NCBI GenBank assembly: GCA_031274495.1
Contig: JAISQB010000072.1
Location: 1-40,743 of the forward strand
Direction: 5' to 3'
Length of the DNA: 40,743 bases
Source of the DNA: Campylobacteraceae bacterium
GTDB lineage: Bacteria; Campylobacterota; Campylobacteria; Campylobacterales; Campylobacteraceae
The position numbers were made by a program, and so were the translations under genes. This document shows, in pieces, positions 25,539-33,170 of the stretch. The notes beneath the pieces are model-generated. The model saw only the letters and a program-made list of their open reading frames with translations. It was not told the DNA's origin and searched no databases. The stretch's first letter is position 1, and each line of letters begins with the position of its first letter.

Positions 25539-25742
25539 ATGGAAGATAAAGATAGCGTTTTAAAAGAGATAGCCGCTCTTATCGAGGCGGACGGCAAGGG
25601 GGTCTTGGAGCTTGAAGTGATGAAATTTATGAGTTTGGAGGAGCTAACCTCCATCAAAGAGTCCCTCATCAAAAGAAAAAACAACAGAAAAGATGAGCAA
25701 GAGAGCTGGTACAAAGAGTGGACGCAAAAGTGCGGGAAATAA
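25539..25742 (+). CDS. Small hypothetical protein (67 aa)
   Basis: 67 residues, charged and helical (MEDKDSVLKEIAALIEADGK; SLEELTSIKESLIKRKNNRK), without signal peptide, Cys pairs or membrane segment. AAAGG sits about nine bases before the ATG, and a possible minus-10 TATGAT (25504-25509) lies upstream. Its end overlaps the start of the PhnP-like gene by 25 bases, so the two are probably coupled. Family not recognised. Confidence 0.6.
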   Translation: MEDKDSVLKEIAALIEADGKGVLELEVMKFMSLEELTSIKESLIKRKNNRKDEQESWYKEWTQKCGK

Positions 25743-26476
25743 AACTAAAATTTATCGGCACAAGCGACACGGCGGGGCTTCCCGTGTATGGCTGTAACTG
25801 CGCGGCGTGCGATATGTACAGAAAAAGCGCCAAGACGAACTCCCCAAGCTGCGCTTATATAGAGTGTAGTGAAGGGGTGATATTTATAGATAGCGGCAGC
25901 GATGCGCTTTTAGGGATACGGGAGGGGAAGAGATTTTTGGCGCAATTTCTGACCCACTTTCACGCCGACCACGCGTATGGGCTTTTGAGACTGCGCCATA
26001 TGAATTTAACAGCACCCTGCTACCACCCCAAAGATGAACGCGGATTTGCCGACCTTTTGACGCGCCCGCACGGGTTTACATTTATAGAAAACACCCCCTT
26101 TAAAAGTGTCTCCGTAAGCGGCATCGAGTTTACCCCTATCCCGCTAAAACACACCCGCCCCACCCACGGATACCTCATCAAAACGCCAAACAAAACCATA
26201 GCCTATCTTACGGACTGCTCCGATGTCGAAGAGGAGAGCCTGGCATTTTTGCAAAAGCAAAACTTAAACGCCGTCTTCATAGACGCCAGTTACGATATAA
26301 AGTACAACGAAGGCAAACATCTAAATTTCGACGAAGCCAACGCGATGATAGACAAAATGGGAGCAAAAGAGGGCTTCCTAATCCACCAGAGCCACTACTC
26401 GCTGTCATATATCTTAGAACATAAAATAACGCTTAAATACCCATATATCCCCGAGGGGTTTGAGTACGATATCTAA
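25718..26476 (+). CDS. PhnP-like MBL-fold metallo-hydrolase (probable phosphodiesterase)
   Basis: 252 residues from GTG 25718 (a second GTG at 25730 is possible). The metallo-beta-lactamase motif is LTHFHADHAYGL (His80, His82, Asp84, His85), with further ligands in PLKHTRPTHGYLI and YLTDCSD. The three-Cys motif GCNCAACDMY (Cys26, Cys28, Cys31) matches the extra zinc site of PhnP, which hydrolyses the 5-phosphoribosyl 1,2-cyclic phosphate of the C-P lyase pathway. No phn genes are nearby, so a general cyclic-phosphate or nucleotide phosphodiesterase role is equally likely. Cytosolic. Confidence 0.82.
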   Translation: MDAKVREIKLKFIGTSDTAGLPVYGCNCAACDMYRKSAKTNSPSCAYIECSEGVIFIDSGSDALLGIREGKRFLAQFLTHFHADHAYGLLRLRHMNLTAPCYHPKDERGFADLLTRPHGFTFIENTPFKSVSVSGIEFTPIPLKHTRPTHGYLIKTPNKTIAYLTDCSDVEEESLAFLQKQNLNAVFIDASYDIKYNEGKHLNFDEANAMIDKMGAKEGFLIHQSHYSLSYILEHKITLKYPYIPEGFEYDI

Positions 26477-26507
26477 ATGGCGCAAACTAATACTTTAGCC
26501 TTATATT

Positions 26508-26541
26508 ATTAAAGTAATTTTAATATATCTTCGTGTAAAAT
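26508..26541 (+). promoter_or_regulatory. Unit 1 palindrome plus minus-10 (conserved lipoprotein promoter element)
   Basis: ATTAAAGTAATTTTAAT (26508-26524) is a near-palindrome; TAAAAT in GTGTAAAAT (26536-26541) follows. AAAG to TAAAAT distance is 25 bases (26 in the other three copies). It starts a leader of about 190 nt before the 26734 gene. Confidence 0.6.
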
Positions 26542-26604
26542 CATCCGTGGGTTTGGTATCCGGTGTGGTAGTATATATTTAATTTTACATTAAATATAGT
26601 ATGA

Positions 26605-26651
26605 GGAGAGTTGAGAGAAATGATATTTCAAATTTCTCAACTCTCCTTTTT
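26605..26651 (+). terminator. Strong hairpin plus T-run inside the unit 1 leader (attenuator or sRNA terminator)
   Basis: GGAGAGTTGAGA (26605-26616) pairs perfectly with TCTCAACTCTCC (26635-26646), followed by TTTTT. It lies between the promoter element and the lipoprotein gene, so it either attenuates that gene or ends a short RNA of about 100 nt. Confidence 0.7.
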
Positions 26652-26733
26652 CTGAAATTTTGTTTTTTACCCCGATATCATACAGCTGTCCAAAAAAATC
26701 AAGGTATTAAAATTTAATTGATAAGGGGTAAGT

Positions 26734-27633
26734 ATGAAGCATATAGTTAAACTGCTAACGGCAGTTTTGGTTTTAGAGTTTTTAGTTGGCTGCGGAGGCG
26801 GCGGTGGAGGAAGTAGCAATCCTGGTGGAGGCGGTCCTAACAACGGTTCGGATTATAATATTTCGCAAGAAAATTACACCCTTACTTATGAAAATAGTAT
26901 CGGGACTGCATTTATAAAAGTTAATAACGGGACTTTTTTAATGGGTGTTGATAGTAGCGATGGGTGGACGGCACCGGATGAAATGCAACACGCAGTAAAT
27001 ATTACAAAGCCATTTTATCTTGGAGTATATGAAGTTACAAAAGGAGAGTGGAAAGCCATAATGGGTGCGAACAGTGATCCTTATCCTGCTTTTAATAATG
27101 ATAAGTATCCTGTAACAAATATTAAATATGCGCAAATTCAAGAGTTTATTGATAAGTTAAATGCAAAAGAGAAAAGAACGACGCCGGATAGACCAAAATA
27201 TCGTCTTCCTACGGAAGCCGAATGGGAATATGTCGCAAGAGAGGAAGGTGCAAAATTAACAGCTTGGAGTTTTGGCAATGACATTGCGAAGTTAGAGCAG
27301 TATGCACAATACAATAAAACCGGCACTCTGGTTTTTGCAAGGGTTGGTCAAAAAGATCCAAATAGTTTGGGGTTTTATGATATATACGGCAATGCATATG
27401 AATTTGTATCTGATTTTTATGATGTAAATTATGGTTTAAATTCAGCGCAACTCGCAAGCGTTACGGATGATCCGCAAGGACCGGTTTCGGGAACGAAAAA
27501 AGTTGCTCGAGGCGGTAGTATCACAACTGCAAATCCGGCTGACTTACGCTCGGCTCGCCGTGTAGACCTGGATATAGGCGATTCTTATCCTAATTTAGGC
27601 TTTCGTTTGGCATTGGACGCGCCTGCGCCATAA
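26734..27633 (+). CDS. Lipoprotein with formylglycine-generating-enzyme (SUMF1-like) domain
   Basis: 299 residues. The lipoprotein signal peptide is MKHIVKLLTAVLVLEFLVGC with the lipid-attached Cys at residue 20, followed by a Gly/Asn/Ser tether. Residues about 60-295 form an FGE-sulfatase type domain. Its marks are NGTFLMGVDSSDG, EVTKGEWKAIMG, YPVTNIKYAQIQEFIDKLN, YRLPTEAEWEYVAREEG, LGFYDIYGNAYEFVSDFY, RGGSI and NLGFRLAL. True sulfatase-activating members use Cys or copper; most bacterial lipoprotein members are non-catalytic binding or regulatory domains, and no sulfatase is present here. RBS AAGGGG. It is the first unit of a four-unit tandem array. It shares its signal peptide and upstream leader with unrelated lipoproteins downstream, so it appears to be a domain swap onto a common front end. 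Confidence 0.85.
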   Translation: MKHIVKLLTAVLVLEFLVGCGGGGGGSSNPGGGGPNNGSDYNISQENYTLTYENSIGTAFIKVNNGTFLMGVDSSDGWTAPDEMQHAVNITKPFYLGVYEVTKGEWKAIMGANSDPYPAFNNDKYPVTNIKYAQIQEFIDKLNAKEKRTTPDRPKYRLPTEAEWEYVAREEGAKLTAWSFGNDIAKLEQYAQYNKTGTLVFARVGQKDPNSLGFYDIYGNAYEFVSDFYDVNYGLNSAQLASVTDDPQGPVSGTKKVARGGSITTANPADLRSARRVDLDIGDSYPNLGFRLALDAPAP

Positions 27634-27641
27634 TTAAACAT

Positions 27642-27673
27642 AAACGGCTGTTGCAGTATCGCAATAGCCGTTT
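27642..27673. terminator. Bidirectional hairpin terminator, unit 1
   Basis: AAACGGCTGTTGC (27642-27654) pairs with GCAATAGCCGTTT (27661-27673). It separates the lipoprotein gene from the convergent crcB remnant. Confidence 0.65.
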
Positions 27674-27885
27674 ATCTAAGCAAAAACCGCAAAAAAATAA
27701 GCAGACAACCCCAAAAGCACAGACGAACTAACATAAAAAATGTCTTAAGCAACTCTCTCGTTTTCACCAAAAATCCCATTGAAAAAGCAGACGATATATT
27801 CACAACAAGCGTGTAGCATGGGAACGAATCGCTCTTGATGATACCAAACAGCGCATGACGCAAAAGCGCCGTAAAAACAGCCCTG
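27672..27885 (-). pseudogene. crcB remnant, unit 1
   Basis: The minus strand encodes RHALFGIIKSDSFPCYTLVV, matching the intact copy downstream (RHTLFGIIKSDSFPYHTLVV). It then has a deletion of about 40 codons and resumes at GFLVKTRELLKTFF. After that the frame is lost because one A is missing from the ACATAAAAAA run. DNA identity to 28840-29208 is high outside the deletion. It has no start region. Clearly a decayed copy from segmental duplication. Confidence 0.85.
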
Positions 27886-27940
27886 AAGGTTTTAAATATA
27901 ATATATAGTGCGATAAATTAATGATTTATTTGTCCAACAT

Positions 27941-27972
27941 AGAGTAATTTGTAATATATCTTAGTGTAAAAT
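27941..27972 (+). promoter_or_regulatory. Unit 2 promoter element (degenerate palindrome plus minus-10)
   Basis: AGAGTAATTTGTAATAT replaces the cleaner palindromes of units 3 and 4, with GTGTAAAAT following (TAAAAT 27967-27972). Spacing from AGAG to TAAAAT is 26 bases, as in units 3 and 4. Confidence 0.5.
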
Positions 27973-28005
27973 TCTCCGCAAGTTTAATATTTGATGGGGT
28001 AACAG

Positions 28006-28113
28006 ATGTTTAATGTTGTTTTAAATTTAATCCGCAAACTAAATAGCAAATTTTTTGCTTACCAAATCTTATTATCTTCCACAAAATATCGCATATTTTG
28101 TCAAAAAGTTTAA
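28006..28113 (+). CDS. Leader small ORF of unit 2 (35 aa)
   Basis: An ATG frame preceded by GATGGGG encodes MFNVVLNLIRKLNSKFFAYQ followed by ILLSSTKYRIFCQKV. The larger leader ORF of unit 3 contains corresponding pieces (FNIILSAFCRE; FFACQVFFL; SRILYKKI), so these leaders are homologous. Whether it is translated, or is only a DNA homology, is open. A perfect AT-rich stem, ACAAAATAT/ATATTTTGT, lies at 28081-28101 within it. Confidence 0.3.
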   Translation: MFNVVLNLIRKLNSKFFAYQILLSSTKYRIFCQKV

Positions 28114-28144
28114 AGTATCAAAATTCATTTCATAAGGGGTAAAC

Positions 28145-28798
28145 ATGAAGTATATAGTTAAGCTGCTAACGGCAGTTTCGGTTTTAGGTTTTTTAGTTGG
28201 CTGCGGAGGCGGAGGTGACGAGACGGACGAAAACAACGATCCTCAAAAGTCGCAAATCTCTTTTGCAGATATAGAGTCTACATTTTCGGTCGATTTTCCG
28301 GTACCTGCGGGCTCCAAAGTTGTTTCTATAGACAAGTATAAGGTGTATAGCGCTACTCAAGCGGCGTTTAATGATTTGAACGCGACCGTTCTTAAGCCCG
28401 GAAAATATATCCTTGCCAGCAATGGCTATCACATAAGTGAAGATACGACAACCAAGATAACATATTACGCCGAACACAACAAAACCGCCGGCACCATTCG
28501 GACGGGAATATACACCTATTCAAATTTCGCAGGATTGAGCGATGATATATTTGATTATGAGTTTGGCGTTGTAGACGGGAAGTTTGCGAAAGCTGTCAAA
28601 TATGTAAGATATGAGGGTAGTATATCGTCACAGTATTCTAATTATGCGACAAATCAGCGATATTTGCCATCATTAGGCTTTAACAATTGCAAGTCTACCG
28701 AGGGCAATTGGAGATGTTCAAAGAGCGATTCTAAGTTCACATACATCTGGGAAACGATAGACGCCTACACATATCAATATATCATAACAGCAAAATAA
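28145..28798 (+). CDS. Lipoprotein of unknown function, paralogue A (unit 2)
   Basis: 217 residues. The signal peptide MKYIVKLLTAVSVLGFLVGC ends in a lipobox Cys (residue 20) and a Gly-rich tether. The mature part is one domain shared with the lipoproteins at 29750 and 30755. Shared marks are ISFADIESTFSVDFP, YKVYSATQAAF, TYYAEHNKTAGTIRTGIYTY, the EFGVVDGK loop, AVKYVRYEGSIS, and a Cys pair spaced by eight residues (FNNCKSTEGNWRC) that could form a disulfide. RBS AAGGGG. Predicted to be anchored in the outer or inner membrane facing the periplasm or outside. I do not recognise the family. Confidence 0.75.
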   Translation: MKYIVKLLTAVSVLGFLVGCGGGGDETDENNDPQKSQISFADIESTFSVDFPVPAGSKVVSIDKYKVYSATQAAFNDLNATVLKPGKYILASNGYHISEDTTTKITYYAEHNKTAGTIRTGIYTYSNFAGLSDDIFDYEFGVVDGKFAKAVKYVRYEGSISSQYSNYATNQRYLPSLGFNNCKSTEGNWRCSKSDSKFTYIWETIDAYTYQYIITAK

Positions 28799-28812
28799 AA
28801 CTCACATCTAAA

Positions 28813-28840
28813 AAAACAAGGCGATTTTTCGCCTTGTTTT
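28813..28840. terminator. Bidirectional terminator, unit 2
   Basis: AAAACAAGGCGA (28813-28824) pairs perfectly with TCGCCTTGTTTT (28829-28840) around a TTTT loop. A and T runs on the two sides make it work in both directions between the convergent lipoprotein and crcB. Confidence 0.85.
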
Positions 28841-29208
28841 TATCTCATCAAGCTTCTTAGCAGATAAACGGCGGCGAAGTAGCTCGCGAGCCCCAAAAGC
28901 ACAGACGAGCCAACATAAAAAAATGTCTTAAGAATCTCACCCTTATCCACTAAAAATCCCGTATCTAAAGCAAACGATGAAAATGTCGTAAACGAGCCTA
29001 AAAGTCCCGTGATGAAAAAGAGTCTGACAGGCAGGGGCATATTGCCTTTTAGGATGCAATACTCCGCGAACACTCCTATGAAAAAACAGCCGATGATATT
29101 CACAACAAGCGTGTGGTACGGGAACGAATCACTCTTGATGATACCAAACAGCGTATGCCGCAAAAGCGCCCCCAAAACAGCCCCAAAAGCGATAGCAAGA
29201 TAGTTCAC
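28840..29208 (-). CDS. crcB: Fluoride exporter CrcB/FEX
   Basis: 122 residues from GTG 29208 (MNYLAIAFGAVLGALLRHTL). A longer ATG reading at 29253 would place the probable minus-10 box inside the coding region, so I prefer the GTG with AAGGGGG upstream. Four membrane helices, and the family marks GGxxGALLRH-like N-terminus, TLVVNIIGCFFIGVF and GLLGSFTTFSSFALDT (the FTTFSSF track that lines the fluoride pore). It forms a dual-topology dimer that exports fluoride. This is the only intact copy among four units. I looked for a fluoride riboswitch upstream and did not find its characteristic sequence. Confidence 0.9.
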   Translation of the reverse strand: MNYLAIAFGAVLGALLRHTLFGIIKSDSFPYHTLVVNIIGCFFIGVFAEYCILKGNMPLPVRLFFITGLLGSFTTFSSFALDTGFLVDKGEILKTFFYVGSSVLLGLASYFAAVYLLRSLMR

Positions 29209-29243
29209 TCCAAGCCCCCTTAGCCCAAAATATTTTTGCGGCA

Positions 29244-29249
29244 AGTATA
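29244..29249 (-). promoter_or_regulatory. Minus-10 box (TATACT) for crcB
   Basis: On the minus strand TTATACT lies about 36 bases before the GTG start at 29208, supporting that start over the upstream ATG. Confidence 0.45.
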
Positions 29250-29253
29250 ACAT

Positions 29254-29458
29254 ATCTGTTTTTAAGCGGGTGTGTGAAAGTCGTGAAAAACTATAGCTTC
29301 GGGCGACGGATATCGCACAAAATTAGGTAAACGCAATCACCACTTTTTCCATCCATAGATGGAATAAAAACCCCATAATATGGCGCCAATATGTTTATAT
29401 GTCACAAAATATTTCAAGTGTGTTATCCAAGTGCGATAAACTTATGATTTTTCTTCAT
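29254..29458. other. Unit 2/3 junction without gene
   Basis: About 200 bases between the crcB upstream region and the unit 3 promoter element. The right part (from TTTCAAGTGTGTTATCC to GATAAACTTATG, about 29412-29444) resembles the sequence just before the unit 4 element (CTTCAAGTGCTATTC ... GCAAACTAACG), so the conserved block extends upstream of the palindrome. A short self-complementary CCATCCATAGATGG lies near 29350. No gene is seen. Confidence 0.45.
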
Positions 29459-29496
29459 AATATTAAAGTAGATTTTAATATTTATTGGTGTAAAAT
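29459..29496 (+). promoter_or_regulatory. Unit 3 palindrome plus minus-10
   Basis: AATATTAAAG (29459-29468) and its mirror ATTTTAATATT (29472-29482) form the palindrome; GGTGTAAAAT follows with TAAAAT at 29491-29496. The leader to the lipoprotein is about 250 nt. Confidence 0.65.
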
Positions 29497-29527
29497 TTAT
29501 ACAGATTATTATTAGAAGGTATTAGTA

Positions 29528-29746
29528 ATGATAATATTTAATATTATCTTAAGTGCGTTCTGTAGAGAAATAGAGAGAGAAAACATTACAAATTTCTTAA
29601 GTGCTTTATTTTCCAAAAAATTTGCGCGCTGTTGTGGTGCCGGATTTTTTGCCTGTCAAGTTTTTTTCTTAGATTTCATCGCAATATCTCGTATCTTGTA
29701 CAAAAAAATTAAAAGTGTGAAAATTCTCTCAACAAGGAAGGAGTAA
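29528..29746 (+). CDS. Leader small ORF of unit 3 (72 aa)
   Basis: ATG preceded by AGAAGG nine bases upstream, in the leader of the unit 3 lipoprotein. It begins MIIFNIILSAFCREIERENI and includes KKFARCCGAGFFACQVFFLD, and it ends four bases before the lipoprotein ATG, its last codons lying over that gene's AAGGAG site. This arrangement would allow translational coupling or leader-peptide control. Partial similarity to the unit 2 leader ORF supports common origin. Coding status is uncertain. Confidence 0.35.
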   Translation: MIIFNIILSAFCREIERENITNFLSALFSKKFARCCGAGFFACQVFFLDFIAISRILYKKIKSVKILSTRKE

Positions 29747-29749
29747 AAC

Positions 29750-30370
29750 ATGAGACATATAACTAATCTGCTCGCGGCAGTCTTGGTTTTGGGGTTTTTA
29801 GTCGGCTGCGGAGGTGATGGTGGGGATCAAGATTTACATATCTCTTTTGATAGAGTGCATACTGAGTTTCCGGCTTTTTTTGAGCATGAGAATGCCAGTA
29901 TTGTTGATATAAAGAAGTCTAAAGTATATAGCGCTACTTCGGCAACGCTGGATAGCGTTCGTTTGAAAGTTTCATCAGGACACCCTTTGACAAATCCTGA
30001 AGATGGACTGTATGAATTTACGGACGAGGAGGCAAGTGTAAGGTATTTTATCCAATACAACGGCACGGTGGGTAGTCTCGACGCAGGTATGAATAGCACC
30101 TCAAACGAAGTACTAACAGAAAGCGCTTTTAATAACGAGTTCGGCGATATAGACGGCGATCTCAGGCAAGTCGTCATCGAAGTGAGTTATAATGAGCCTA
30201 TATCGCCCGTAGATGCCTCTTTTCAGGAAGCGTTTGGTTATCTCAAATTTAATTGCTACACCACCATAGGCACTCAACATATATGCAATAGGCAAGACGA
30301 TAACTTTGAATATAACTGGACGCAAAAAGACGAACACACATACCGATATGTTGCATCGATAAAGAGATAA
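29750..30370 (+). CDS. Lipoprotein of unknown function, paralogue B (unit 3)
   Basis: 206 residues, signal MRHITNLLAAVLVLGFLVGC with lipobox Cys at residue 20, and a shorter Gly/Asp tether. The mature domain is the most diverged of the three paralogues but retains ISFDRVHTEFPAFFE, KVYSATSATLD, RYFIQYNGTVGSLDAGM, NEFGDIDGDLRQVV and the Cys pair (FNCYTTIGTQHIC), here spaced by nine residues. AAGGAG lies directly upstream. Function unknown. Confidence 0.75.
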   Translation: MRHITNLLAAVLVLGFLVGCGGDGGDQDLHISFDRVHTEFPAFFEHENASIVDIKKSKVYSATSATLDSVRLKVSSGHPLTNPEDGLYEFTDEEASVRYFIQYNGTVGSLDAGMNSTSNEVLTESAFNNEFGDIDGDLRQVVIEVSYNEPISPVDASFQEAFGYLKFNCYTTIGTQHICNRQDDNFEYNWTQKDEHTYRYVASIKR

Positions 30371-30380
30371 AATCCACATC

Positions 30381-30408
30381 AAAGCAAGGTGTTTTTCACC
30401 TTGCTTTT
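30381..30408. terminator. Bidirectional terminator, unit 3
   Basis: AAAGCAAGGTG (30381-30391) pairs with CACCTTGCTTT (30397-30407) around TTTTT, with flanking A and T. Confidence 0.8.
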
Positions 30409-30535
30409 ATTCTTGCAAAGCCGCTAAGGGTTTAACCATAAAGTCAAACCATTAAGATAATGCTAAAACACCCACATGCCCCAAAAGCTTCAAGTGCTAT
30501 TCATAAATATAGCAAACTAACGATTTATCTTTAAA
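30409..30535 (-). pseudogene. Trace of crcB 3' end, unit 3
   Basis: Immediately after the terminator, TGCAAAGCCGCTAAGG (about 30415-30430) resembles the position-equivalent TGCGAAGTTGCTTAAG of unit 4 and, more weakly, the end of the intact crcB. Everything further is lost except a CCCCAAAAGC-like block near 30480. There is no coding potential left. The rest of the gap to 30754 holds the promoter element and leader of unit 4, with no gene seen. Confidence 0.4.
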
Positions 30536-30572
30536 ATATTAAAGTAACTTTTAATATGCATTGATGTAAAAT
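30536..30572 (+). promoter_or_regulatory. Unit 4 palindrome plus minus-10
   Basis: The cleanest copy: ATATTAAAG (30536-30544), TAA, CTTTTAATAT (30548-30557), then GATGTAAAAT with TAAAAT at 30567-30572. The leader to the lipoprotein is about 180 nt, and the equivalent of the leader ORF has lost its start codon and contains an early stop. Confidence 0.65.
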
Positions 30573-30754
30573 TCATAAAATTTGCCATATTGGGAAGTAT
30601 TTACAAAGTCTAATGCTATTTTAAGTTTGGTTTGCGAAGAGGGGTAGCTTTACGAATTGTCTTAAATTGCGACACAAAATTTATTTTCCACTTCAATAGT
30701 GCGCGTTTTATTTAAAAAATTTAAAGTATCAAAATTCATTAATAAGGAGAAAGC

Positions 30755-31414
30755 ATGAAGTGTGTGGTTAAACTGCTAACGGTAGTTTTTGTTTTAGGTT
30801 TTTTAGTCGGCTGCGGAGGCGGCGGTAGCGGAGTGGGCAATAATCCGGGCGGTGGCAATGAACCCACAAGCCCGAAAATCTCTTTTACTGATATAGAGGC
30901 TAATTTTTCAATTCCTTTTCCGGCACCTGAGGATGCCAGTGTTGCCGCTGTAGAAAAGTATAAAGTATATAACGCTACTCAAGAGGCGTTTGATGACTTT
31001 AACGAGACGGTTCTTGATATTAAAGGGTATACCTTTAATGCTACCAATGACCTTCACACAAATGTAACAAATAATATAACATATTATGCCACACACAACA
31101 GTACCGCCGGCACTCTCCAGGTAGGAATACTCGGTCATTCAAATTTTGAAGACTTGACTGATGAGATTTTTGATGATGAGTTTGGCACTATAGATGGGAA
31201 TCTTACGAGAGCCGTCACCTATGTAAGATATCACGATAATATATCGGCACGATATGCTAATTATGCAGTGAATGGTCGATATTTAAAATCGCTAAGTTTT
31301 AATTGTGGCACTAATGATGGTAAATATGTATGCAGCAAGATCGACGATAAATTCATATATGGATGGGCAGAGTTAACTGACTACGCGTACCAATATGTCA
31401 TAATAGTAAGATAA
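30755..31414 (+). CDS. Lipoprotein of unknown function, paralogue C (unit 4)
   Basis: 219 residues, signal MKCVVKLLTVVFVLGFLVGC with lipobox Cys at residue 20, then a Gly/Ser/Asn-rich tether. The domain is close to paralogue A: ISFTDIEANFSIPFP, EKYKVYNATQEAFDDFN, TYYATHNSTAGTLQVGI, DDEFGTIDGNLTRAVTYVRY, and the Cys pair in FNCGTNDGKYVC. Several N-x-S/T and Asn-rich loops suggest an extracellular beta-rich fold. RBS AAGGAG. Function unknown. Confidence 0.75.
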   Translation: MKCVVKLLTVVFVLGFLVGCGGGGSGVGNNPGGGNEPTSPKISFTDIEANFSIPFPAPEDASVAAVEKYKVYNATQEAFDDFNETVLDIKGYTFNATNDLHTNVTNNITYYATHNSTAGTLQVGILGHSNFEDLTDEIFDDEFGTIDGNLTRAVTYVRYHDNISARYANYAVNGRYLKSLSFNCGTNDGKYVCSKIDDKFIYGWAELTDYAYQYVIIVR

Positions 31415-31426
31415 AATATACATTCA

Positions 31427-31454
31427 AGGCAGGGTGATTTTTTGCTCTGCTTTT
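31427..31454 (+). terminator. Weak terminator, unit 4
   Basis: AGGCAGGGTGA (31427-31437) pairs imperfectly with TTGCTCTGCTTTT (31442-31454). It corresponds in position to the terminators of units 2 and 3. Confidence 0.5.
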
Positions 31455-31515
31455 ATTTTGCGAAGTTGCTTAAGAGATAAATGGCAAGTCCTAAAGAGAC
31501 GGATGAGCTGATATG
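31455..31515 (-). pseudogene. Trace of crcB 3' end, unit 4
   Basis: GCTTAAGAGATAAATGGC and TCCTAAAGAGACGGATGAGC correspond to CTTAGCAGATAAACGGC and CCCCAAAAGCACAGACGAGC in the 3' end of the intact crcB. The match ends at ATATGAAAA, where a REP-like sequence block begins. This dates the array's right edge. Confidence 0.65.
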
Positions 31516-31532
31516 AAAATCATGATTTTTTT

Positions 31533-31735
31533 AGTTTGGATTCCCGCCTTCGCGGGAATGACGAAAGGAGGGGACGGGAATGATGAAAGAGGGGACGGGA
31601 ATGATGAAAGAGGGATGGATTCTCGCATTCTTTCGTGATTGACGCACTTTGCACTACGCTGAAGTGCGGGAGTGATGGAGTGGGTGGATTCCGGCTTCTG
31701 CGGGAGTGACGAAAAGGGGGCGAGAGTGGCGGAGA
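31533..31735. repeat. REP-like palindromes with degenerate copies and a 21-bp tandem repeat
   Basis: GGATTCCCGCCTTCGCGGGA (31538-31557) then ATGACG contains the perfect stem ATTCCCGC/GCGGGAAT. Degenerate relatives occur at 31617-31644 and 31686-31711. Between them GGGGACGGGAATGATGAAAG plus A is repeated twice in tandem (31570-31590, 31591-31611). No coding potential. The remaining bases to 31796 show nothing else. Confidence 0.8.
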
Positions 31736-31796
31736 AAGAGGGCTTTCGCCTTCTTCCCGTTGTTGCGCTCTATGCCTGAATGCGAAGAAGCAAACA

Positions 31797-33170
31797 TTAC
31801 CCCAAAAACTTCACCGTAAAAGTTATAACACCATCTTCATAGGTGGCGGAGATGTCGGCTTGGTGGGCTTTTATGATGGATTTTACTATGGCTAAGCCTA
31901 TGCCGCTGCCGCCGCTTTTTCTGTCTCTGGCGGCTCCTGTTCTGTAGAAGCGGTCGAAGAGTCTGTCGGTGTTCTCTTTTGAGAGGACGGTTCGGGTTTT
32001 GTTGGAGATCTGCATCGTTTTTTTATCTTTTAAAAATGTTATCGATATGACGCTGTTGGGCTGCGCGTAATATATGGCGTTTGAGATGAGGTTGGCGATG
32101 GCGCGTCTTATCATCTCTTTGTTGCCTATTATCTTGAAAGCTTCGCTTTGCGCGTCGATCGTCACGCCGCTCTCTTCGGCAAGTACGCTAAAATACTCGG
32201 TGATATTTGCGACTTCATCCGCCAGATCCACCTCCTCTTTTACGATAGCCTCCGTCTCGCAAGTGGCTAAAAAGAGCATATCATTTACCATCCTGGACAT
32301 TCTTTTTAACTCTTCAAGGCTTGAGTAGAGTATCTCTTGGTACTCTTTGGCGCTACGGGTGAGGCTGAGCGCTATCTGTATCTGTGTCATCAGGCTGCTG
32401 ATGGGGGTGCGCAGTTCGTGGGCTATGTCGGCTGAAAAGTTGGATTGTCGCTCAAAAACATCTTCGATGTGCTCTATCATCTTGTTGAAAGAGAGCACGA
32501 GACTTCTTAGTTCGATCGGCGCGCTTTTTTCGTCAAGCCTTATGTTGAGGCGTTCCGTTGTTATGTTTTGGATTTTTCGGCTGATGGTTTTGACAGGTTT
32601 GAAGCCAAAAAAGATAACCAAAAAACAGGCTGCCAGCGCCACAAGGCATGCCATCGTAGTGACGAACCGTAAGGTTGCCCTAAAGTGGATGATATAGCTT
32701 CGGTGGAAATTTATGTCAATGCCTACGGCGATTTTTGCTATGTTGGCATTTTCGACGGGGTTCATAAGTACGCGGTAGTAGTTTTTGCCGTCGTTCCATG
32801 TCTGAAGCGTTTCGTTTTGCCCAAATCTGTTTTTCACGATGAGCGCGAGCAAGTCGCCGTCATCCCTCTCCGATATATACGGTATCTTGCCGCTTTTATC
32901 TTCAAGATAGATAAAAAGATTGGGATGTGATAGGATGATCTGGTCGAGGGCGTTTTGCAGTAACTCCTCGCTGCGAGCGCGCCTTAGGCTCTCTTTTGCC
33001 GCCCTTGAGACGAGGTCTAATTCGTATATATCCATCCGCATAAAGTGCTCTTTCGCCGTGTGCTCTATATAAAGCCCAAAGCCGACAAGGATCAAAATCG
33101 CAGACAACCCCACGGGTATCACAAGCCGCAAAATGAGCGATTTGGGTCCGAAGAGTTTGTCGTATTTCAT
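31797..33170 (-). CDS. cusS: Heavy-metal sensor histidine kinase, CusS-like
   Basis: 457 residues. TM1 (about 12-33), a periplasmic sensor of about 130 residues, TM2 (about 167-190), HAMP, and phosphoacceptor His251 in [20 protein letters not shown]. The ATPase domain has [34 protein letters not shown] and [12 protein letters not shown]. In the family, CusS senses periplasmic Cu(I)/Ag(I). Its start overlaps the cusR stop by four bases. It is the last gene of the cus transcription unit. Confidence 0.88.

Follow-up and report, generated by a model that had tools for sequence, protein, structure and literature searches.

A tandem lipoprotein gene array with a common 5' cassette and crcB remnants in a Campylobacteraceae genome

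Positions 1 to 40,743 of contig JAISQB010000072.1, hereafter called the window, belong to the 1.8-Mb, 99%-complete draft genome of a Campylobacteraceae bacterium (assembly GCA_031274495.1) and contain an array of four lipoprotein genes on the forward strand with material from crcB, a gene of the fluoride channel family, on the reverse strand. The array is bounded on the left by a gene for a PhnP-like metallo-beta-lactamase-fold protein (25718..26476, forward strand; PF12706, E 4e-17), a conserved anchor with synteny in nine further genomes of the genus, and on the right by a gene for a CusS-type sensor kinase (31797..33170, reverse strand; PF21085, E 1.5e-26), which is syntenic as well. The original prediction, made from the letters of the window, had described four tandem units of the same order, each with a palindrome-promoter, a long leader, a lipoprotein gene, a terminator hairpin and a convergent crcB copy. 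The tandem arrangement was confirmed, since a 116-nt block recurs four times and the homology reaches upstream to the promoter/palindrome in all four units. The common order held for the front and the hairpin of every unit, but not for the body of unit 1, which is unrelated to the others, nor for the crcB of unit 3, which could not be demonstrated.

Common to all units are a palindrome/promoter-like block, an approximately 200-nt leader, a ribosome-binding site (RBS), a near-identical signal peptide and a lipobox followed by a run of glycines. The 116-nt block comprises the end of the leader, the signal peptide and the lipobox, and its copies start at 26691, 28102, 29707 and 30712, with 65-86% identity to the first. 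The 5' cassettes (leader end, RBS, signal peptide, lipobox and glycine run, all on the forward strand) lie at 26691..26806 in unit 1, where the cassette was found as direct repeat family D1 and groups with those of units 2-4, at 28102..28217 in unit 2 (86% to unit 1), at 29707..29822 in unit 3 (65%) and at 30712..30827 in unit 4 (78%). The lipobox reads L-V-G-C in all four units, as in bacterial lipoprotein signal peptides. Under the E. coli +2 rule, the glycine at this position argues only against retention in the inner membrane.

Further upstream, the palindrome predicted for each unit was found in exact form in units 3 (ATATTAAAGTAGATTTTAATAT, 29460..29481) and 4 (ATATTAAAGTAACTTTTAATAT, 30536..30557) only, by a palindrome search. 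The corresponding block of unit 1 (26503..26541; ATATTATTAAAGTAATTTTAATAT ... TGTAAAAT) was recognized in the sequence and in an alignment of the four leaders as a putative promoter, and that of unit 2 (27937..27974), identified in the same way, has a decayed left arm; all four lie on the forward strand. The palindrome was also considered as the site of a genome-wide regulon and rejected, its matches elsewhere not exceeding the control level. A hairpin peculiar to the leader of unit 1 (26603..26648, forward strand; z -5.8) is followed by T-rich DNA and is possibly an attenuator or a leftover terminator; the leaders of units 2-4 folded no more strongly than shuffled sequences. An Rfam search for riboswitches or structured leaders gave no family at the gathering threshold (a sub-threshold snoRNA match, E 0.34, was on the opposite strand), and no fluoride riboswitch was above threshold in 20000-40743.

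Downstream, a terminator-like hairpin follows each lipoprotein gene (z -4.3 to -10.3 across the four, called by position), in agreement with the prediction. The hairpin of unit 2 (28812..28841; z -10.3) separates the convergent lipoprotein and crcB genes, and those of units 3 (30381..30407) and 4 (31426..31453) are homologous to it. That of unit 1 (27640..27675; z -7.5) showed no homology to them in the alignment. All four are on the forward strand.

Concerning crcB, it was confirmed that the gene is intact in unit 2 alone (28840..29253, reverse strand; 137 aa; PF02537, E 9e-25), and only this copy carries a CRCB domain above the curated cut-off (TIGR00494, 81.1 bits, cut-off 80.45). The copy in unit 1 (27709..27893, reverse strand) is, as predicted, a pseudogene with an internal deletion and a frameshift, and lacks the start region; its alignment to the unit 2 gene covers 88 nt at 90% and 61 nt at 77%, and it scores 172, the highest of 1000 shuffles reaching 69. 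Compared with the unit 2 gene, the pseudogene is thus about 90% identical over the best 88 nt, and the crcB genes of other species about 71-77% in DNA. Of the short traces predicted in units 3 and 4, that of unit 4, corresponding to the 3' end of crcB (31462..31520, reverse strand), is colinear and weakly supported (3 of 1000 shuffles score as high), while the sequence beyond the unit 3 terminator is at chance level (557 of 1000).

The proteins of units 2 (28145..28798, forward strand; 217 aa), 3 (29750..30370, forward strand; 206 aa) and 4 (30755..31414, forward strand; 219 aa) belong to one family, A1, as established from the open reading frames (ORFs), homology and a tree in which unit 3 is on a long branch. 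The mature parts of units 2 and 4 are homologous in DNA (236 nt at 73% and 160 nt at 75%) and the two proteins are about 55% identical; unit 3 is 36-39% identical to unit 4, and its DNA homology to units 2 and 4 is weaker, amounting to a 65-nt repeat family, D4. The family has no Pfam or NCBIfam match, and its profile gave only weak matches against PDB sequences, mainly to the signal peptide. The structure model of unit 4 is confident, with a mean predicted local distance difference test (pLDDT) score of 86 and mostly more than 90 in the mature part, and displays two alpha/beta repeats loosely resembling TBP and YwmB. A fold search with this model pointed to a TBP-like/YwmB-like two-repeat fold: the best PDB match had an E value of 7e-4, but the TM-scores of these matches were only about 0.25-0.36. 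As TM-scores were low and TBP-like proteins of large viruses scored similarly to the other fold matches, no function was deduced for unit 4. Most members possess a pair of cysteines near the C-terminus, and both are absent together in one congener (G012), which is the pattern expected for a disulfide.

The family had been thought lineage-specific. Instead, most congeners have full-length homologues, and so does another family of the order, with several copies per genome. In four genomes of that other family, a single protein combines the domain with a subtilase (Peptidase_S8) C-terminal to it (L253:2974-5250, L261:1492-3603, L259:1-2052 and L142:1-1567), a fusion that may serve as a clue to its function. 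The window's genome encodes one further full-length member on contig C39 (L245:4162-4827); its gene converges on one for a two-partner-secretion haemagglutinin-like protein of 1303 aa (L245:145-4056).

Unit 1 encodes a different protein (26734..27633, forward strand; 299 aa). Its identity to unit 2 is 80-90% up to the lipobox and falls to 23-40% immediately after it, and the mature part, far from being a diverged copy of the family as originally supposed, is an unrelated FGE-sulfatase domain of the C-type-lectin fold (PF03781, E 3e-33). FGE stands for formylglycine-generating enzyme, whose catalytic cysteine pair is lacking here: the only cysteine of the whole translation is that of the lipobox, and unit 1 should therefore not be a formylglycine-generating oxidase. 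The best PDB match was 2y3c, the Treponema protein TvpA (E 2e-20).

This match brings to mind a diversity-generating retroelement (DGR) of which unit 1 would be the variable protein, TvpA being such a protein and FGE-type C-type-lectin folds carrying DGR variation in Mtd and TvpA (PMC5006420), but the draft genome contains no reverse transcriptase, and the body DNA of unit 1 does not recur in it as a possible template repeat, which makes the idea extremely improbable.

The locus was then compared among the congeners. Nine other genomes of the genus display the same anchors at a single syntenic place, with one crcB, zero to two lipoproteins and usually a histidine kinase after them. One genome (G002) has no lipoprotein gene, four (G005, G003, G012 and G008, broken in the last) have one and two (G004 and G011) have two; in G007, which has one, the order of crcB and lipoprotein is swapped, and in G013 crcB and a lipoprotein are preceded by an FGE lipoprotein that has lost a large internal segment. 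Since the relatives have one locus and one crcB, the array is an expansion in the window's lineage. In the lipoprotein tree, most crcB-adjacent lipoproteins, including units 2-4, formed one clade (support 100/100), outside which fell those of G007 and G011 and the second G004 copy; units 2 and 4 were sisters (97/96), and monophyly of units 2-4 was not rejected in spite of the long branch of unit 3 (p 0.44). Together with synteny, this tree indicates the tandem expansion of a gene resident at the locus, with crcB carried along. It was concluded that the window's lineage amplified in tandem an ancestral pair of convergent lipoprotein and crcB genes, still present in congeners; of the crcB copies, one is still intact, another has decayed to a pseudogene, and little or nothing is left of the rest.

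The predicted duplication with hitch-hiking and decay of crcB is supported by the single crcB of the relatives, the pseudogene at about 90% identity and the sister position of units 2 and 4, but the prediction missed the homogenization of the cassettes. Likewise, the notion of a lipoprotein kept and diversified within the lineage fits units 2-4 and fails for unit 1, a different protein behind the same front.

The history of the fronts was found to differ from that of the bodies. Among 20 FGE sequences of the genus, the bodies of unit 1 and of the G013 remnant are sisters (100/98) and occupy the same locus. When their cassettes were held together, the topology was rejected (approximately unbiased (AU) test, p 2.7e-4), the unit 1 cassette joining the cassettes of units 2-4 (95-98/97). 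For G004, the two cassettes came out together (92/70), while grouping of the two mature proteins was rejected (AU p 3.2e-4). On a tree of 21 cassettes, the sequences sorted by genome: the genome label changed 10 times, against at least 11 times in 500 of 500 shuffles, a count that is partly due to recent tandem duplicates and for which the informative cases are unit 1, G004 and three loci of G011. In addition, a G013 contig (C42, L102:675-3252) carries three tandem lipoprotein genes, the last being a chimera of the other two: 205 nt at 82% to gene A are followed by 511 nt at 84% to gene B, the segments overlapping at the lipobox/glycine run, so that the 5' end is that of gene A and the mature part that of gene B. 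The cassette trees and this chimera led to the conclusion that genes acquire new fronts through recombination at the signal-peptide/lipobox block. Leader/signal-peptide cassettes were homogenized within the genome, and the front of the FGE-fold gene, which is older and unrelated, was homogenized with them.

Bodies appear to be replaced as well. Between G003 and G004, the synonymous divergence (dS) of crcB, HK2 and RR2 is 0.39-0.43 and the nonsynonymous divergence (dN) 0.01-0.05, against a dS of 1.05 and a dN of 0.63 for the mature part of the lipoprotein. The left side of the G003 locus is nearer to G012 (phnP dS 0.86 vs 1.62) and its right side nearer to G004 (HK2 dS 0.39 vs 0.66). This divergence and the opposite affinities of the flanks point to replacement by recombination near the lipoprotein gene, and not just to fast point mutation. 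An inter-lineage recombination breakpoint is likely at this locus, from the comparison of G003 (L077) with G004 (L078) and G012 (L074).

These observations can be accounted for by a variable lipoprotein array that evolves by tandem duplication, with crcB hitch-hiking, and by recombination hinged at the lipobox, a reading which, from the sequences compared, we consider on balance probable. The locus resembles recombining tandem lipoprotein arrays in its features, unit 1 sharing the front only, with recombination deduced from trees and one chimera. Homologous recombination would be the agent: the similar 5' cassettes, and also the terminator/crcB repeats behind the genes, would recombine, by which genes would be duplicated, deleted or re-fronted. 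One set of expression and secretion signals would then serve the export of different mature lipoproteins, the four promoters being presumably active. Least certain of all, the products may reach the outer membrane or the cell surface, and phages, competitors or the host, for instance, may exert a diversifying pressure in the gut that renders variation useful.

Several points weigh against this account. The upstream promoter blocks are more divergent than the signal-peptide blocks; the signal-peptide dS comes from 24 codons only and is hence rough; and recombination was deduced from one genome per species rather than within a population. With a broken copy in G008 and none in G002, the gene is dispensable, and some of the divergence could be due to relaxed constraint (dN/dS of units 2 and 4 about 0.77, i.e. 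0.36/0.47). Finally, expression, display at the surface, a binding partner and the selecting agent are all presumptive.

Among the competing explanations, a simple segmental duplication, in which three copies of the entire unit arose and diverged by point mutation, the cassette having no special role, agrees with units 2 and 4 being sister paralogues over their full length and with the crcB pseudogene and trace standing at the expected positions. We consider it unlikely: it is already contradicted for unit 1 by the unrelated body, the cassette of the orthologous FGE gene of G013 fails to group with that of unit 1, signal-peptide dS (0.11-0.24 among units 1, 2 and 4) is below the mature dS of units 2 and 4 (0.47), and the C42 chimera is against it. 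Plain duplication and divergence, as originally proposed, misses the main process, namely that cassettes are homogenized independently of the bodies.

No better chance is given to a recent capture, by which a duplicated cassette received an FGE body behind it independently in the window's lineage and in G013. The FGE gene is indeed at the locus in only two of the examined genomes, each time with the local type of cassette, but the two bodies are mutually closest among the FGE sequences of the genus and stand at the same place by phnP; as they are sisters at one place, a double capture is less parsimonious than cassette conversion.

Still less probable is an immunity array, in which the lipoproteins would be polymorphic and protect against antibacterial toxins. 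The tipC arrays of Streptococcus are of this kind and have the same layout, with tandem genes whose conserved 5' block contains the lipoprotein signal peptide, bodies that vary, and recombination (PMC9484751). Against it, the ORF lists read for the locus and for the neighbourhoods of family members elsewhere contained no toxin partner, no type VI secretion system sheath gene was found in 14 genomes (type VII systems were not searched), and another family of the order has the domain in fusion with subtilases. No defence family was found with PADLOC, and a phage or plasmid origin of the array was discarded after zero tblastn matches.

The array of recombining cassettes does have described counterparts, and the statement that no system of this layout was known was too strong. 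In streptococcal tipC arrays, tandem paralogues recombine through conserved blocks that include the lipoprotein signal peptide (PMC9484751), and they are the nearest described system, which the present locus resembles in its tandem paralogues, conserved 5' block with signal peptide, variable body and recombination via this block, though it may not be an immunity array. Unlike in tipC arrays, no toxin partner was found, the conserved block reaches the promoter and leader, one unit has an unrelated body, and crcB copies hitch-hike between units. The lpl clusters of Staphylococcus aureus (PMC4470592) are also tandem lipoprotein paralogues at a fixed chromosomal place, but they consist of a different protein family and form a genomic island, whereas the present locus lies among housekeeping genes and has a non-homologous unit 1. 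TvpA of Treponema denticola (PDB 2y3c) shares the FGE-type C-type-lectin fold and is the closest solved sequence to unit 1; unlike TvpA, unit 1 is not DGR-diversified, the genome having no reverse transcriptase.

In the variable lipoprotein families vlp, vsp and vsa of mollicutes, the 5' end is shared and the bodies differ. The same likeness exists with the MBA of Ureaplasma (PMC3047005), but these families switch by site-specific inversion or by changes in repeat length, whereas no invertible element was seen, nor sought, in the present array.

Lipoprotein genes in tandem may be a recurrent trait of this genome. Contig C46 (L247:1-10061) bears a second, unrelated array of about eight lipoprotein-like ORFs (~280-455 aa), with shared N-termini, copies 64-70% identical in DNA and a GLUG motif in two of them. 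Just past the array of the window, imperfect repeats (ATTCCCGCCTTCGCGGGAATGACGAAAG, GAGGGGACGGGAATGATGAAAG) occupy 31520-31740, and similar intergenic repeats seem present in relatives, where they are read as SFPRRRESK frames. The syntenic crcB loci of the congeners match Campylobacteraceae metagenome-assembled genomes (JAIR/JAIS/JAIT; Im510, Cd354, Gsp477, Gx485, Gx481, Ncb351, Iy174 and Ct408), and from these isolate codes the genus probably consists of uncultured Campylobacteraceae from termite guts. A set of termite-gut genomes including Campylobacterales (PMC9137090) is a possible source study, to which no accession was matched.

On a wider scale, the lipobox/glycine run might be a recombination hinge throughout the genus, the cassette passing between unrelated bodies (the family of units 2-4, FGE-fold proteins and others). 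We regard this extension as rather doubtful; if true, the set of exported lipoproteins would be continually re-fronted and reassorted genome-wide.

Taken as a whole, the locus looks like an array that reshuffles exported proteins rather than a new kind of system. It offers a clear and testable case of lipoprotein fronts evolving in concert while bodies are exchanged, and it adds an undescribed lipoprotein family that stands alone in this genus and is fused before subtilases in another family of the order. If they are surface-exposed, these lipoproteins would be candidate contact points with the host, phages or competitors.

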